Shown here: positions 24,966 to 31,643 of the stretch, one piece after another
Layout of the letters: each line of letters opens with the position of its first letter
Position numbering within the stretch: position 1 is the stretch's first letter
NCBI RefSeq assembly: GCF_003129605.1
Contig: NZ_QBDX01000004.1
Span: 372,001 to 436,000, forward strand
Reading direction: 5' to 3'
From: Hyphobacterium indicum
GTDB taxonomy: Bacteria; Pseudomonadota; Alphaproteobacteria; Caulobacterales; Maricaulaceae
DNA: 64,000 bases
Program-made: the position numbers and the translations under genes
The notes under the pieces: model-generated
What the model saw: only the letters and a program-made list of their open reading frames with translations
Database searches by the model: none
What the model was told of the DNA's origin: nothing

Positions 24966-25042
24966 TGGCGCACCGGGGAAGATTCGAACTCCCGACCCCC
25001 AGATTCGTAGTCTGGTGCTCTATCCAACTGAGCTACCGGTGC
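24966..25042 (-). tRNA. tRNA-Arg (anticodon ACG)
   Basis: Minus-strand cloverleaf: acceptor GCACCGG/CCGGTGC, D-arm GCTC/GAGC, anticodon stem CCAGA/TCTGG with loop CTACGAA giving ACG, T-arm GGGAG/CTTCC with TTCGAAT loop, discriminator G, CCA encoded. The length with CCA is 77 bases. Confidence 0.95.
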
Positions 25043-25117: not shown

Positions 25118-26977
25118 TTACCGGTCTTTTTCAGGCGCTGTTGCGGGCGTCTGGCCGCCGTAGAATTCGGCCTGTTCCCGGAACAGATCGCGATACGGAC
25201 CCGGTGATCCGGCCAGCGCCTCCGGCGTGCCGGACTGGACGATCCGGCCCTTTTCCAGCACCACGATCCGGTCGCACCAGCGCAAGGTCGACAGGCGGTG
25301 GCTGATGACGACCAGCGTGCCGGGCCGGCCGCGCAGACCGCGCACGAAATCGGCCTCTGCGGCCGGGTCGAGCGCCGCAGTCGGCTCATCCAGAATGAGA
25401 ATGTCCGCGCTCTCGCGCAGCATCGCCCGGGCCAGCGCCAGCCTTTGCCATTGTCCGCCGGACAACTCCCGTCCGTCGAGGAATTGCCGCGACAGCTTCG
25501 TGTCGAGCCCCTCCGGCAGATCGGCAATCACCGGCCCCGCCAGCCCGGCCTCAACGGCGCGTTCCAGACGCGCCTGGTCCGCCACCCGCAAGCCCTCGCC
25601 CATGGCGATATTCTCGCCGGCCGTCAGGCTGTAGCGCTGCGAGGGCTGGAACACGGCCGCCGTGCGCGCGAACAATGTGGCAGGATCCCAGTCCTTCGTG
25701 TCCAACCCGTCCAGCATCACTTGGCCCGATTGCGGCAGGTAGAGCCCGGTCAAAAGCTTGACGAGCGTCGATTTTCCCGAGCCATTGGCCCCCACAATAC
25801 CGAGCTTCTCCCCGGCGGGAATGGCCAGCGAGACCGCGGTCAGGGCGGGCCGTTTGCCGTTGGGATAGGCAAAGTGGACATCGTCCAGCACATAGCCCTG
25901 CCCCGGCGCCGGCCCGGCCTGCGCCCCGCCCCGTTCCTGTCCGCTTTCCCGGCCCAGAAGCGCGTAGAGATTGGAGACATAGAGCAGGTCTTCATACCCG
26001 CCGCTGAGCGTTGCCAACAGGGTGGTGACCGTGTTCTGCCCCTGTTTCAGGATGGCCGCATACATCGTCATCTGGCCCAGCGTCAGCGCCCCCATGACGG
26101 TCGCCCACACCACCCAGGCCTTGCCGCCGAGAAAGAAGGCCGAACTGACCATCAGCAGCAGCACGCCGAATGTTGTACGCCTTGTCTGCAGCGCCTGGTC
26201 CTCGCCGAACAGCCAGCGGAACAGGCCGGTATAGCGGGTACGGATCGCCGGGCTGGACACCGCGTGCAGGCGCTCGATGGCGGCGCTGTCACTGGTCATC
26301 AGGCCTTCCAGATAATTGCGCCGCCGCATTTCCGGTGTACGGCCGGTATAGAAGCGGAAGGCCGAGCCGGCAAAGCCCAGCTCGCTCAGGAACAGGGGCA
26401 CACCGCCCGCGATGATGATCGCCACGGCCAGCGGCGAGAAGGTCCACAGTACAATCGCCAGCGAGACGAGGGTCAGACCGTGCTGGCCGCTTTCAATGAT
26501 CCGGTTGGCCAGATTATAGGGCCGCGCACTGGCATGTTGGCGCGCCAGCAGGATCTGCTGTTGCACGTCCGGACGCTCGATGGTCTCCAGATCAAACCGG
26601 CTGGTCTTGTCAAAGATTTTCGTGCTGACCGCAAAACCCAGCTCGGCATGCAGCAGGCGTTTGAGGTGAACCAGAATCCGCCGCAACGCCATGGCCACGC
26701 CCAGCACGCCGGCCTCGGCCGCCACCCAGATCAGGGCCATCTGCCGGTCGGCCGCGGCCTGCGTCTCGATGGCCGCCAGTACGGTGTCAACGATCAGCTT
26801 GGCCAGATAGGCCGCCAGTGCCGGCACCAGCGCCACCAGCGCCGTTGTCACCGCAATGATCAGGGTCAGGCGCGGTGCGGTGGCCCAGACCAGGGCCAGC
26901 GTCCGGCCGGCAAAGCCCAGCGACTGACGGAGACCGGGTGGCTCGATGTCACTGAAAGGCGTATCCGTCTGGGCCAT
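25118..26977 (-). CDS. ABC exporter, fused permease and ATPase, third gene of the sulfotransferase operon
   Basis: Half-size exporter (619 residues) of the ABCB/MsbA architecture. A six-helix membrane domain spans about 30-340. The nucleotide-binding domain spans about 360-600, with Walker A GANGSGKST at 396-404, the signature LSGGQWQR near 515 and Walker B ILILDEPTAALDP, followed by the switch histidine in VVISHRLST. It probably works as a homodimer moving a lipid, glycoconjugate or peptide out of the cytoplasm. It lies 12 bases after the glycosyltransferase-sulfotransferase fusion, so the likely cargo is the product of the two upstream enzymes. That is inference from position only. Confidence 0.92.
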   Translation of the reverse strand: MAQTDTPFSDIEPPGLRQSLGFAGRTLALVWATAPRLTLIIAVTTALVALVPALAAYLAKLIVDTVLAAIETQAAADRQMALIWVAAEAGVLGVAMALRRILVHLKRLLHAELGFAVSTKIFDKTSRFDLETIERPDVQQQILLARQHASARPYNLANRIIESGQHGLTLVSLAIVLWTFSPLAVAIIIAGGVPLFLSELGFAGSAFRFYTGRTPEMRRRNYLEGLMTSDSAAIERLHAVSSPAIRTRYTGLFRWLFGEDQALQTRRTTFGVLLLMVSSAFFLGGKAWVVWATVMGALTLGQMTMYAAILKQGQNTVTTLLATLSGGYEDLLYVSNLYALLGRESGQERGGAQAGPAPGQGYVLDDVHFAYPNGKRPALTAVSLAIPAGEKLGIVGANGSGKSTLVKLLTGLYLPQSGQVMLDGLDTKDWDPATLFARTAAVFQPSQRYSLTAGENIAMGEGLRVADQARLERAVEAGLAGPVIADLPEGLDTKLSRQFLDGRELSGGQWQRLALARAMLRESADILILDEPTAALDPAAEADFVRGLRGRPGTLVVISHRLSTLRWCDRIVVLEKGRIVQSGTPEALAGSPGPYRDLFREQAEFYGGQTPATAPEKDR

Positions 26978-26989
26978 GACCGGCGGCCT

Positions 26990-28417
26990 CTACTCCGCCA
27001 CTTTCGCGGCAATCCGGGCCGCTTCCACACGCTGTGACATGATATTGCCCTTGTGCGGGAAAGGCTCGGCCGGTTTGGGCACGCCCATGAAGGGCGCCAG
27101 CTTGTCGAAGCCTTCGCCCTCGCACACATTCAGGATCAGCAGATCGTCCGGCCGGTCCCTGAAATAGGCCTTCACTTCGGCCACATGCTTTTCATAGACC
27201 CAGACAAATCGCTCCGGCTGGAAATTGTAGCAGCCATAGACCGCCGCCCGCAGAAGCTGGCGCATCAGGAGATGGGTCTCCTCGTCCGGGTCTTCCGTGT
27301 GCTTGAAGGCCGGGCGGTTGAACCAGTGATTCTGGCACGAGCGCAGCCAGCTTTCCCGGTCCCGCACGGTGAGGATGAATTTCGATCCCGGATATTGCTC
27401 GTCCAGCTGCTGGTAATAGGGCACCGTCGTGATGTCGGTCAGCCCGTCATGATATTTCAGCAGGGTCAGGTCATACTGGCCATAGGCGAGTTCGGTATAG
27501 GTATCCTCGTCGATCGGATAGTGCGATGTGTCCCATCCGAGCATCTGCAGGCCGGCCGTCAGCGACCGCGTCCCGGTGCGCGACAGGCCCAGACCGAAGA
27601 CTTTCGGCTTCTCGGCGGCCGATCCGTAGACATGGCGCTGGTCATTCTTCTCCAGCCAGGCTTCCAGATCCGCCAGGGTGAAGGGGTCCTTCTCCTCAAT
27701 CCCCAGCCGCGCCAGCTCGCGCTCGGCATGCTGGGGCAGGTTTTCGATGAAGGCATGGGTTTCTGCGGCGCCGGCATCTTTGGAGACATGTTCGCGCGCA
27801 TAGCGCACGGCATGCTGGGCGATAACAAAATCATCGACCGGGCCGGACACGTCCGGCCAGTGCTTCATCGCCGAGGACAGGCGCTTGAACTGGACCTTTG
27901 TCCGGCTGCGCAATTCGCGCAGCGCATATTTCATGAAGACGTGGCGGTAATACTGGAAATAGTCGTGCAGGATATCGAAATTGCGGAATTGCTTGCTCAT
28001 CCGCAACGGCTTCATCGCCAGATTACGCAAGCGCGATTCCGGCCGCAGCACATATTTCAGATCATCCAGCGGCGGTTCGATAGCGGCCATGGCGCGAACG
28101 AGATCGATCCGCGTGATATGCACGCCGCAATGCAGGCGGCCGCGGAAGCGGTCCGTGACATAGGCATCGACATAGGCGGCATCGGTCTGCTCGATGAATT
28201 CGCGCATCTCCTCGAGGATCAGGCAGTCCGCATCCAGATAGACGACGTAATCGCAGTCATGATCAATGCGCAGCATCTGATTCACGCATTCGGTGAAAGG
28301 CCGCACATCATCAATGATATGCACGGCATCCGGCCGGATATGCTTTTTCGCCAGCGCCAGCGAGACATCCCGCGTGCGTTCGTCAATCTGCCGGAAAACC
28401 AGATCAATCTTGGTCAT
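26990..28417 (-). CDS. Two-domain enzyme: glycosyltransferase-like N-terminus fused to a sulfotransferase
   Basis: 475 residues. The N-terminal part (about 1-235) reads as a GT-A-like domain with the nucleotide-sugar/metal motif YVVYLDADCLIL (Asp62-Ala-Asp64). The C-terminal part (about 271-465) is a sulfotransferase of the Sulfotransfer_4-like group: the PAPS 5'-phosphosulfate loop GLGLSRTGTRSL at about 275-286 and the 3'-phosphate motif VRDRESWLRS at 351-360. The fusion suggests one polypeptide that adds a sugar and a sulfate, or modifies the same acceptor twice. It is translationally coupled to the upstream sulfotransferase (ATGA overlap) and followed by an ABC exporter. No frameshift or stop separates the domains. 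Confidence 0.82.
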   Translation of the reverse strand: MTKIDLVFRQIDERTRDVSLALAKKHIRPDAVHIIDDVRPFTECVNQMLRIDHDCDYVVYLDADCLILEEMREFIEQTDAAYVDAYVTDRFRGRLHCGVHITRIDLVRAMAAIEPPLDDLKYVLRPESRLRNLAMKPLRMSKQFRNFDILHDYFQYYRHVFMKYALRELRSRTKVQFKRLSSAMKHWPDVSGPVDDFVIAQHAVRYAREHVSKDAGAAETHAFIENLPQHAERELARLGIEEKDPFTLADLEAWLEKNDQRHVYGSAAEKPKVFGLGLSRTGTRSLTAGLQMLGWDTSHYPIDEDTYTELAYGQYDLTLLKYHDGLTDITTVPYYQQLDEQYPGSKFILTVRDRESWLRSCQNHWFNRPAFKHTEDPDEETHLLMRQLLRAAVYGCYNFQPERFVWVYEKHVAEVKAYFRDRPDDLLILNVCEGEGFDKLAPFMGVPKPAEPFPHKGNIMSQRVEAARIAAKVAE

Positions 28418-29265
28418 TTAGTCTCTTCTCCCCAGGCCATGTCGGCATTGAAGTCTCCGGCCATGTCATTGAACAACGCCAGATGCGGCGCGGACATTTC
28501 GGTTTTCCAGCGAAGGTCCAGCTTTATGCCGCCGGAATGCTTCGCATAATAATCATGTGTGCGCGGTGTCAGCTTGAGTATGGCGTCCGGGTCATGCGCG
28601 ACCTTGCCGCGCGCCGCCACGAACTGGGTGCCGGTATTGCCGCCCAGCGGATGCGACTCGCCGTCATTGAAGGCCAGCATCTCTGCCCGGAAAGGCAGGC
28701 CCGCCACCTCGCAGATCTGCCGGACCACGGCCTCGGGCCGGGTCGCCAGCTCTTCATAGCGCACCACGATTTTCGGGCCGTCATAGGCCGAAAACACCGC
28801 CCGGCTGTCGATGATCTGATCCATCCAGGACCGGATCTGCCCGGCGGCATCGCGCTCGGGATATTTGCGGAAACGTGAATTGAGAACCGCGCGGCCATCA
28901 CGCTGCAGGAAAATCAGTGCGCCGCGATCACCGGCCGCCGTCAGCTCATCCGAACGCGCCCGGATCCAGGCGGCATTCTTGGTTGAGTCGACAATGATGC
29001 GGGTACCGGTATGGGCGGCCACCTGCCGGTAAAGCGGTCTGTCCCGGTCCCAGTGAAAGTCGGACCACACCGGGCAGGCCTCACCACAGACCTTGCAGGC
29101 GCGTTTGCGCAGCGGCTTGTTCAGATCGTGGAGATAGCGGATTTTCGCGCCTTCTCCGACATAGAAGGCTCCGTCCGCCCGACCGAGGATCAAGCCCAGC
29201 AGGGTAGAGCCGGAATGACCGGCCCCGCAAATCATCACGCCCGTTATGGGCGAGCTATGTGTCAT
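28414..29265 (-). CDS. PAPS-dependent sulfotransferase
   Basis: Cytosolic enzyme expected to transfer sulfate from PAPS to an unknown acceptor. The 5'-phosphosulfate-binding loop is in CGAGHSGSTLLGLILG (about 15-30 counted from the upstream TTG) and the 3'-phosphate motif in FLQRDGRAVLNSRFR (about 121-135). A CxxCxxxC cluster (CKVCGEACPVW, about 59-69) resembles the small cysteine knuckle in several bacterial sulfotransferases. ATG 29265 is used. A TTG at 29271 would add two residues. It is the first gene of the operon, and its stop overlaps the next start. Confidence 0.88.
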   Translation of the reverse strand: MTHSSPITGVMICGAGHSGSTLLGLILGRADGAFYVGEGAKIRYLHDLNKPLRKRACKVCGEACPVWSDFHWDRDRPLYRQVAAHTGTRIIVDSTKNAAWIRARSDELTAAGDRGALIFLQRDGRAVLNSRFRKYPERDAAGQIRSWMDQIIDSRAVFSAYDGPKIVVRYEELATRPEAVVRQICEVAGLPFRAEMLAFNDGESHPLGGNTGTQFVAARGKVAHDPDAILKLTPRTHDYYAKHSGGIKLDLRWKTEMSAPHLALFNDMAGDFNADMAWGEETK

Positions 29266-29376
29266 ATTCAAAAAGCCTGTCCCGGCGGAGTGTTCCGGGC
29301 GTCTGAAGCCCGCACGGAATACTCATCCCCTCGCAATGGTCTTAATGCCGCCAATGCGGGGTCGGATGCAAGCAAA

Positions 29377-29435: not shown

Positions 29436-31565
29436 TTACTGCGTCCGGACCGCCACACTTGTTGCGCCGCGGGCATTCGCGCCTTCATTGAAGCGGACGA
29501 AAACGCGGTTCTGGGCCGGGTCATTGGCAATGGCCTGACCATTTCCGCGAACGAAGACGCCGAATGTGGCCGTGCCATTGGCGCCGACATTCAACTGTGC
29601 CGTGGCGGCCCGCGGCGACGTGCATACGCCGGTAGCGGGGTTCGTCGGGCAGACCTCGATATTCTGGATCGCCAGCGCCCGCCCACCTGTATCGCCGGAG
29701 GCCGTAATCGTGCCCGCGGCTCCGACATTGGAAATCGCCACGGCAAACACGCCGACGAAATTTCCGGTCGTCGGCACATTCACCCGCCCCGGATCACCCG
29801 AGGTCGCAAGGGCAACGATATCCGGCACCGGCGTCGGAGAGGAGCTGAAGATCAGCGAATTCAGGCCCAGCGTATACTCACCGGAGCGGCGATTGCTGCA
29901 GAAGGCCTCGACGAACAGATGTGTTTCGTTATTTGTCGAGGCTTGGGGAAGGCCCTGATTGTCGGCAAAATCCGTCGCACTGGTAACCGAGAACACAAAG
30001 TTCTGGGCACCACCGGCGGCGATATCCGCAGGTGTGTTGGCCGTGCCCGACAAGGCGTTGGCCGGTGTGGTGGTTTGATAGGAAAACTGCGCCGGCGTCG
30101 TCCCGGCCAGCCGCAAACCGCAGCCTGTCGCCGTGGAACCGGTTGCCGCCGGATTGATGATCGTGGCGAAGGCCGTGGCGACCGTTCCGTTCTGGACCGA
30201 ACGTGTAATCGGCAGAACCGAAGAAACAACGCGCGGCGCTTCGGCACGGAAATTCACGACATTCCGGCTCTCCTCACGCGCGGCGCGCGCAACGTCAGCC
30301 GGATCAGCATCGTTAAACGGACGTCCGCAAGCGCCAGTTCCGTTTGGCGGACAACGCATCAGCTCCGGATTGGAGAAGAAAAACGCCGTTGTTTCGCCGC
30401 CAATGCCATTTGGCGATCCTGCCGGGCAGGCCTGTATTTGCGCGTTGGTAGACGGATAAGACATGATCGTGTTGAAATTACAGTCAACCCGGTGACCGTG
30501 CGCAAAAGTCCGCACACCGCCGCCAACCTGACCTGTCTCCTCGACGTTATGAACAAAGCCCATATTGTGCCCGATTTCATGCGCAAAAGTCGCGGGGTCA
30601 CAAAGAGATGACTGATCTGGTGTCAGCCAGTCGGCTGAAACCGAATACCCAAAGGGCAGATTTGAAGCGTCCATCGTTCCATTGGTGCCGTTGGTCCACG
30701 CAATGCCACAAGACGTCTGACCGGGCAGAGCACGCTGGATAATTCCAACGAGGTCAGCACCGTAAGTGACGCCAGCTGCCCGCAGAGCGCTCAGATCCTG
30801 AGTGATCTGTGCATTGCCATTTGGATTGCCTGACAGGTTTTCCAGCGTGACGCCCTGATCCGCATTGTCGGTCGTCAGATTGACGGAATCCAGATGCACG
30901 AGCCGCGCCCGCAATCCCGTATCACTGTCAACAAGCGCCTGATCGAGAACCGCCATCAGATACTGAATGCGTCCGCCAGTCGCCAGACCCCAATGGGCGG
31001 TCATGCTCTGGGAATAGAATACCGCAATATCAATGATGCCGTTCGACCCGACCGGCACGGCTTCTGCTATCTCACCGGAAAATTCCAATTCACCGGCCTC
31101 GGCCAACCGCGCCAGCACCAGCGGATCGGGAATCATCATGTCATTGGCACTCATACGTGGCCGAGCACTTGCCGGCATCTGCATGATGCGATGGCCATTT
31201 CCCTCCGGGATGATGTGCCAGATGCCGTCCTCGGTCACGATCCGGCCGAAAGCGTGCCCGTTGGTTTCCGTGATCAAAATCCGATCCAGAAGACTTCCGC
31301 CTTCAAGCCGGCCGACCCAGACTTGCGCCCCCATGGACTGGGTCGCCATGCGGTCCAGCTCGGCCACATAACCCGGCCCGAAATTGAGTGCGACCGTATC
31401 GCCTGGAGACATCCGCATGACGTCAGGTGACAGCCCGTCGAACCGGATGATGTCCGGGCCGCCGTCTGCGGCGGAAATGGACTCTACGTTTGTGAACATG
31501 TCCTGGCCGAAAGCCGAAACGGACACGGCAACAGACACGGCTAGGCCGGCAAGAATTCTGTGCAT
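29436..31565 (-). CDS. Secreted zinc metalloprotease of the metzincin clan (reprolysin-like M12)
   Basis: Predicted exported protease of 709 residues. The start at ATG 31565 gives a signal peptide (MHRILAGLAVSVAVSVSAFG). The catalytic motif HEIGHNMGFVH begins at His329, with zinc ligands His329, His333 and His339 and catalytic Glu330. The Met-turn is in NTIMSYPSTN about 40 residues later. An N-terminal propeptide-like region occupies about 20-170. After the catalytic domain come Ig-like beta-rich repeats (about 455-705) with the low-complexity, Thr/Ala/Gly-rich look of surface or secreted anchor domains. A terminator follows it. Confidence 0.88.
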   Translation of the reverse strand: MHRILAGLAVSVAVSVSAFGQDMFTNVESISAADGGPDIIRFDGLSPDVMRMSPGDTVALNFGPGYVAELDRMATQSMGAQVWVGRLEGGSLLDRILITETNGHAFGRIVTEDGIWHIIPEGNGHRIMQMPASARPRMSANDMMIPDPLVLARLAEAGELEFSGEIAEAVPVGSNGIIDIAVFYSQSMTAHWGLATGGRIQYLMAVLDQALVDSDTGLRARLVHLDSVNLTTDNADQGVTLENLSGNPNGNAQITQDLSALRAAGVTYGADLVGIIQRALPGQTSCGIAWTNGTNGTMDASNLPFGYSVSADWLTPDQSSLCDPATFAHEIGHNMGFVHNVEETGQVGGGVRTFAHGHRVDCNFNTIMSYPSTNAQIQACPAGSPNGIGGETTAFFFSNPELMRCPPNGTGACGRPFNDADPADVARAAREESRNVVNFRAEAPRVVSSVLPITRSVQNGTVATAFATIINPAATGSTATGCGLRLAGTTPAQFSYQTTTPANALSGTANTPADIAAGGAQNFVFSVTSATDFADNQGLPQASTNNETHLFVEAFCSNRRSGEYTLGLNSLIFSSSPTPVPDIVALATSGDPGRVNVPTTGNFVGVFAVAISNVGAAGTITASGDTGGRALAIQNIEVCPTNPATGVCTSPRAATAQLNVGANGTATFGVFVRGNGQAIANDPAQNRVFVRFNEGANARGATSVAVRTQ

Positions 31566-31643
31566 GGATATCCCCCGAAAGGCACCGCAGACCGGCGCTG
31601 AAAAACCGACGCTAGCCGGAGCGGAATGCGAAAGCCACAAAAA

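Follow-up and report, generated by a model that had tools for sequence, protein, structure and literature searches.

Three adjoining genes in a stretch of the Hyphobacterium indicum genome make up a genuine cassette that is inherited together, and their products are of kinds that fit glycosylation, sulfation and export. The genes lie in a window of 64,000 nucleotides (contig NZ_QBDX01000004.1, positions 372,001 to 436,000), by which we mean the whole stretch of DNA analysed, and all coordinates given without a prefix are positions within it. The balance tips slightly in favour of a self-contained cassette that makes and exports a sulfated glycoconjugate. If this is correct, a glycosyltransferase-sulfotransferase fusion with its own exporter would be a compact route, amenable to testing, to a new sulfated compound that is either secreted or displayed at the surface. 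To our knowledge, dedicated sulfation systems have seldom been described in free-living marine bacteria.

Organisation of the locus

The three complete genes, here called A, B and C, span positions 25118-29265 of the minus strand. Gene A (28414-29265, minus strand) encodes a PAPS-type sulfotransferase of the Sulfotransfer_3 family (PF13469) of 283 aa when read from its ATG start, with an alternative TTG start two codons upstream at 29271. Gene B (26990-28417, minus strand, 475 aa) encodes a fusion protein in which a GT-A-fold glycosyltransferase-like domain (residues 1-265, 27623-28417, minus strand, assigned from predicted structure and the DxD motif D62-A-D64) is followed by a Sulfotransfer_4 domain (PF17784; residues 266-475, 26990-27622, minus strand, assigned by Pfam). 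Gene C (25118-26977, minus strand, 619 aa) encodes an ABC exporter in which the membrane domain and the nucleotide-binding domain are fused. The stop codon of A and the start codon of B overlap by four bases in the sequence ATGA, and 12 bases separate the TAG stop codon of B from the ATG of C. Both the composition and the operon-like coupling had been described in a first-pass annotation of this DNA and are borne out here. The frames are not chance occurrences, since relatives preserve all three in this arrangement, mostly with identities of about 45-97%. Between 24700 and 29700, a consensus scan gave a single terminator-like site, located within C (shuffle mean 3.0), and no sigma-70-like promoter (shuffle mean 1.1).

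The same annotation had noted that no polysaccharide genes surround the trio, and none were found among 13 flanking proteins between 17063 and 38226 that were scanned with Pfam. These comprise an aminotransferase, Hsp33, TrkH, ApaG, dCTP deaminase, a DUF6090 protein, a response regulator, an M12 protease, an S58 peptidase, gamma-glutamyltranspeptidase, a histidine kinase, YidC and a 229-aa protein without a match. Neither a polymerase nor an initiating transferase occurs among the scanned flanks or as a shared neighbour of the trio at other loci. An M12B-type metalloprotease gene (29436-31640) lies on the trio strand, 170 bases upstream of A. Its product bears a weak similarity to Mep72, a biofilm protease (107.8 bits, where the cut-off is 645), and among 15 relatives with full-length B an M12-type metalloprotease adjoins the trio only in G004, G005 and G007.

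The two sulfotransferase domains

The product of A matches Sulfotransfer_3 with E 5.7e-9 (37 bits against a Pfam cut-off of 27), and among PDB structures a profile built from 20 homologues matched protein-tyrosine sulfotransferases as well as the CurM sulfotransferase, with a best E of 3e-6. The motifs GxGHSGSTLLG and RDGRAVxNSRxRKYP are invariant across the 20 aligned rows. Also invariant in these rows is a histidine (H17) in the 5' loop, at the place of RaxST Arg-11, which PMC6637879 describes as an essential, positively charged residue. On account of this replacement A could be altered or use a different residue, which counts against its assumed role in the cassette.

The second domain of B matches Sulfotransfer_4 over residues 272-456 (E 1.5e-32, 113.7 bits against a cut-off of 22.8). 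Residues R280, R352, W357 and S360 are invariant in 15 homologues, with Arg and Ser retained at the places expected of PAPS motifs. Its solved relatives include 9kf1 (E 1.4e-11) and SgdX2 (8y9p, E 5.8e-11).

The closest solved relatives of A and of this domain thus include two natural-product enzymes, CurM and SgdX2, which favours an alternative in which the trio makes and exports a sulfated secondary metabolite, or detoxifies one by sulfation and efflux. No PKS, NRPS or precursor gene was found among the scanned flanks of the window or as a shared neighbour elsewhere, however, and we regard this explanation as unlikely.

A predicted glycosyltransferase-like domain in B

The first half of B had been called glycosyltransferase-like from its sequence, and structure prediction agrees: it is modelled with a GT-A topology carrying a DxD metal motif. 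The AlphaFold2 model has a mean pLDDT of 85.6 and a pTM of 0.85, and in a Foldseek search (best E 1.3e-5) its top match was a GT-A mannosyltransferase. Profile methods return far less. Residues 1-265 have no Pfam match in the H. indicum protein, and among 15 members no Pfam family of note was matched (best E 0.0051, in a single member) and no named Pfam glycosyltransferase family was listed for any. A profile of the domain gave weak matches only in the PDB, for example to the DxD region of Skp1 galactosyltransferase (E 0.74). The D62-A-D64 motif, part of a conserved DADC, is invariant in the 15 B rows.

The best Foldseek matches consist of GT-A glycosyltransferases together with related nucleotidyltransferases, with query-normalised TM-scores of 0.29-0.42 for the best 50 of 1065, and none exceeded 0.50 among the matches listed. 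This weighs against the preferred reading of a glycoconjugate cassette to the extent that the proposal of glycosyl transfer must then be founded on the DxD motif and on the fusion to a sulfotransferase.

The exporter

C matches ABC_tran (E 1.4e-28, 100.7 bits), and its other Pfam matches are to P-loop or AAA-type models only, with none to the C39 peptidase. It retains a Walker A motif (GANGSGKST), a signature (LSGGQ), a Walker B motif (LILDEPTAALD) and an H-loop (SHRLS). C is a full-size exporter, related by sequence to MsbA. It has no named orthologue, at least among the best 25 of the 197 NCBIfam families matched (MsbA, NHLM and HlyB exporters among them): no cut-off was reached, the best score being 226.3 bits against a cut-off of 853.3.

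The relationship to MsbA raises the alternative that the cargo is a sulfated membrane glycolipid, with B glycosylating and sulfating a lipid, A adding a second sulfate and C serving as an MsbA-like flippase. The lack of polymer or peptide genes beside the trio and its patchy distribution, which fits a dispensable surface lipid, are consistent with this. Yet C scores 198 bits against the NCBIfam cut-off of 602 for MsbA and so is not an orthologue by that measure, no tie of A or B to lipids emerged, and lipid data for these bacteria were not found in the literature searched. We consider a glycolipid product somewhat unlikely.

Co-inheritance of the three genes

The first-pass annotation had staked its proposal on the three genes keeping company in relatives, and they do. 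We searched 99 related genomes with limits of E 1e-8 for A, E 1e-10 for B and E 1e-80 for C, scoring 13 candidates per genome for the last. B was detected in 32 genomes, as a full-length protein in 16 and as the sulfotransferase domain only in the other 16. A occurs in exactly the 16 genomes with full-length B, and C in 15 of these, the sixteenth (G031) having a run of N after C residue 177; A alone or C alone was found in none of the 99 at these limits. These counts come mainly from one family and ignore kinship, which tempers the support that they give to a glycoconjugate cassette.

In a wider sample of the order, the N-terminal domain of B was present in 28 of 398 genomes, 26 belonging to the same family (Maricaulaceae) and two to another, and among 385 genomes drawn from the class only the H. 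indicum genome itself carried it. The genome_contigs collection yielded 32 loci, many of them labelled Maricaulis, Oceanicaulis, Glycocaulis or Hyphobacterium and including Maricaulis maris DSM 4734 (L077). The remainder include Magnetospirillum sulfuroxidans and MAGs labelled Acidobacteriota, Gemmatimonadota, Rhodospirillaceae, Brevundimonas and Henriciella; the Acidobacteriota and Gemmatimonadota carriers are MAGs in which binning errors are possible. The scan of this collection requires conserved peptides and would therefore miss distant relatives.

A adjoins B in 31 of the 32 loci, the exception (L073) being a contig that begins 44 bases before B. C is likewise present in 31 and is missing in M. 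sulfuroxidans (L086); it runs off the contig in L065 and L071, and L090 and L091 contain broken frames. Wherever the contig allows, the order A-B-C is kept, except in M. sulfuroxidans. With L090 and L091 set aside, and with starts chosen by script, the spacing ranges from -4 to +7 bases between A and B and from -29 to +42 bases between B and C. The distance matrices of A, B and C at 29 loci are correlated with r of 0.86-0.89, a value reached in 0 of 2000 permutations, and B is the best conserved of the three (mean distance 0.29; A 0.43, C 0.46). The shared presence in the same relatives, the conserved order and the correlated distances all argue for a single cassette. Speaking against it, M. 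sulfuroxidans has A and B without C, its best C-like match being 38% identical over residues 295-602 only, and A-B may for this reason be the core of the set.

As regards the supply of PAPS, APS kinase (E < 1e-60) is present in all 16 carriers, though also in most of the 99 relatives. We rejected it as a discriminator: at E 0.001 it is found in 93 of the 99, a few weakly.

Neighbouring genes at other loci

No fourth gene is common to most trio loci. Shared neighbours fall into small groups. Some of these reflect synteny among Maricaulis loci, others are a family of signalling-type proteins in varied places at five loci and a methyltransferase (PF01035) in L071, L076 and L091. Two alphaproteobacterial MAGs carry a sulfate permease gene that reads in the same direction as A and lies about 1.1 kb upstream of it (L071:6665-8095 and L091:6611-8041, Pfam having been run on the L091 protein), and in L089 another lies 5.5 kb downstream on the other strand. 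Such permeases fit the need for sulfate, but they are few. In the Gemmatimonadota MAG, C is followed after 10 bases by a gene for an NAD-dependent sugar epimerase/dehydratase (L074:13306-14394), and this, like the permeases near A, is in keeping with the synthesis of a sulfated glycoconjugate. A conserved precursor peptide was sought beside the trio, but none of the small open reading frames within 800 bases is shared more widely than among near relatives. In the Acidobacteriota MAG (L069), a 738-aa protein encoded upstream, which resembles a penicillin acylase, ends at the start assigned to A.

Comparison with known sulfation systems

A PAPS sulfotransferase linked to an ABC exporter is also found in the RaxX-RaxST-RaxA-RaxB system of Xanthomonas oryzae, in which a tyrosine-sulfated peptide leaves by type I secretion. 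The likeness extends to the protein-tyrosine sulfotransferases matched by the A profile, among them TPST2 (3ap1), which is the template for the RaxST model in PMC6637879. When the features of RaxX-RaxSTAB were sought in the trio, a sulfotransferase with PAPS-binding motifs was present, with His replacing Arg in the 5' loop, but neither a linked double-glycine precursor (none within 800 bases is shared beyond near relatives) nor a C39 exporter was found. Its shared neighbours include no precursor or adaptor gene, and the trio also differs in possessing the glycosyltransferase-sulfotransferase fusion. It therefore resembles the RaxST-RaxB pairing but fails the defining tests of that family, namely the precursor and the peptidase.

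NodH acts with other nod genes on Nod factors, whereas no nod genes were seen among the trio flanks scanned. Together with other glycolipid sulfotransferases (PMC11625862) it belongs to the same Pfam family as A (Sulfotransfer_3), and it sulfates a glycoconjugate. The closest gene-named solved relative of the second domain of B, SgdX2 (PDB 8y9p, Sulfotransfer_4), is a chain of 256 aa that stands alone, whereas the trio domain is fused to a GT-A domain. Clusters for sulfated exopolysaccharides are larger and contain polymerisation genes, in contrast to the three genes of the trio, which have no polymer genes among the flanks scanned. What the synechan cluster of Synechocystis shares with the trio is the pairing of sulfotransferases with glycosyltransferases (PMC8205485). 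We class the trio as a variant of sulfated-conjugate systems. A gene set of this composition was not found in the literature searched, which was mostly open-access, in line with the initial impression that no named bacterial system matches it.

A proposed route to a sulfated glycoconjugate

From these components we infer the following activities and order of steps. Within the cytoplasm, the GT-A domain at the N terminus of B would glycosylate an acceptor with a nucleotide sugar as donor. Sulfate from PAPS would then be added, probably at two positions, by the Sulfotransfer_4 domain of the same protein and by the stand-alone sulfotransferase A. C, acting as a homodimeric ABC exporter, would then take the product across the inner membrane, with the outward direction of transport presumed. 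The acceptor is probably an amphiphilic lipid or small peptide that the cell produces elsewhere, since no gene for a polymerase, an initiating transferase or a precursor turned up alongside the trio.

A JmjC hydroxylase and Tat-signal repeat proteins

In M. sulfuroxidans (L086), a JmjC_2 gene, a gene for a short Tat-signal peptide, A and B lie in a row, A being about 170 bases from the Tat peptide, such that a JmjC/Tat arm and an A-B arm share one gene cluster. The solved relatives of the JmjC protein are the NO66 and MINA hydroxylases. H. indicum encodes a JmjC protein on another contig (G000:C1:286649-287833). A search of 60 relatives with the M. sulfuroxidans JmjC query gave 24 matches at E 1e-15, of which 19 reached E 1e-55, the latter limit having been picked after the list was seen.

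Of 16 stretches with the JmjC gene, 15 have genes for Tat-signal repeat proteins next to it, and a later search showed the same arrangement at 29 of 30 loci; the two exceptions have the JmjC gene at the end of a contig. One to three such genes stand beside it (including loci L102-L149), with the repeat consensus TDSD[ST]GxYADPxGxGRG; no Pfam or NCBIfam model over the repeats passed its cut-off in five of the Tat proteins. Across the order the JmjC gene turned up in 75 of 398 genomes (14 of 59 genera), and together with its repeat proteins it looks like an enzyme-substrate pair in its own right.

These observations suggest another possible target, in which the trio acts on the Tat-signal repeat proteins that the adjoining-encoded JmjC hydroxylase also modifies. 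Besides the gene row in M. sulfuroxidans, the enrichment of JmjC in trio carriers supports this: it is present in 25 of 28 carriers and 50 of 370 non-carriers of the order, the two samples being taken as the same 398 genomes (the listed genomes agree), and in 25 of the 26 carriers of the H. indicum family in that sample. Within 36 genomes of the family the figures are 13 of 14 carriers and 5 of 22 non-carriers (Fisher p 8e-5, kinship ignored), and by genus 5 of 6 and 3 of 13 (p 0.04, kinship ignored). The match of the A profile to tyrosine sulfotransferases points the same way, as do the many repeats with Tyr near acidic residues.

Against this, JmjC occurs without the trio in 50 genomes, and it is absent from six of eight tested carriers (L069, L074, L076, L071, L089 and L062, the last inside the family, with L089 and L062 corresponding to genomes G314 and G027) and from a further carrier, G136. 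The Tat repeats were found in none of eight carriers, seven of which lack the JmjC gene, the eighth being G794. A repeat profile matched 7 of 40 genomes, of which G085 and G101 are independent, G033 is weak (E 8e-4), and G786, G790, G021 and G016 match partly by construction, their own proteins being in the profile. Enrichment of Tyr in the repeats of carriers was sought and rejected, with 232 of 294 units containing it against 63 of 78 in non-carriers of the family, and the repeat-like part of the M. sulfuroxidans Tat peptide has no Tyr. The post hoc E 1e-55 limit and statistics that ignore kinship weaken the case further, and we judge it improbable that these proteins are the substrate. In a fuller version, the NO66/MINA-like JmjC enzyme would hydroxylate Tat-exported repeat proteins, A and B would next add sugar and sulfate to them, and C would export either a helper conjugate or a fragment that carries the modifications. 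This would amount to an undescribed bacterial protein-modification pathway, and we think it quite improbable. Given the carriers without JmjC, the absence of Tat repeats there and the equal Tyr content, we keep the link between the trio and JmjC as a lead and retain the sulfated glycoconjugate cassette as the main reading.

Mobile elements and distant relatives

A tRNA-Arg gene (24966-25042) lies downstream of C. At one end of the trio or the other, no more than about 300 bases away, tRNA genes were seen for Arg (the window, L060 and L061), Leu (L064 and L067) and Ser (L080), too few loci to argue for insertion of the trio at tRNA genes. A viral origin was likewise set aside: 53 stretches of the viral_contigs collection matched the pattern of the B N-terminal domain and none was confirmed, and two records of one phage gave a weak match (E 0.3). 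Plasmids were discounted as well, 16 of the 17 records that match B doing so only from query position 248 on, that is, in the sulfotransferase part. Plasmid p1 of Streptomyces sp. BHT-5-2 (L093:6001-6173) carries two neighbouring fragments, each in its own frame, that align with 55% and 64% identity to parts of residues 63-120 of the B N-terminal domain. They are likely a gene remnant, which suggests that relatives of this domain exist in actinobacteria.
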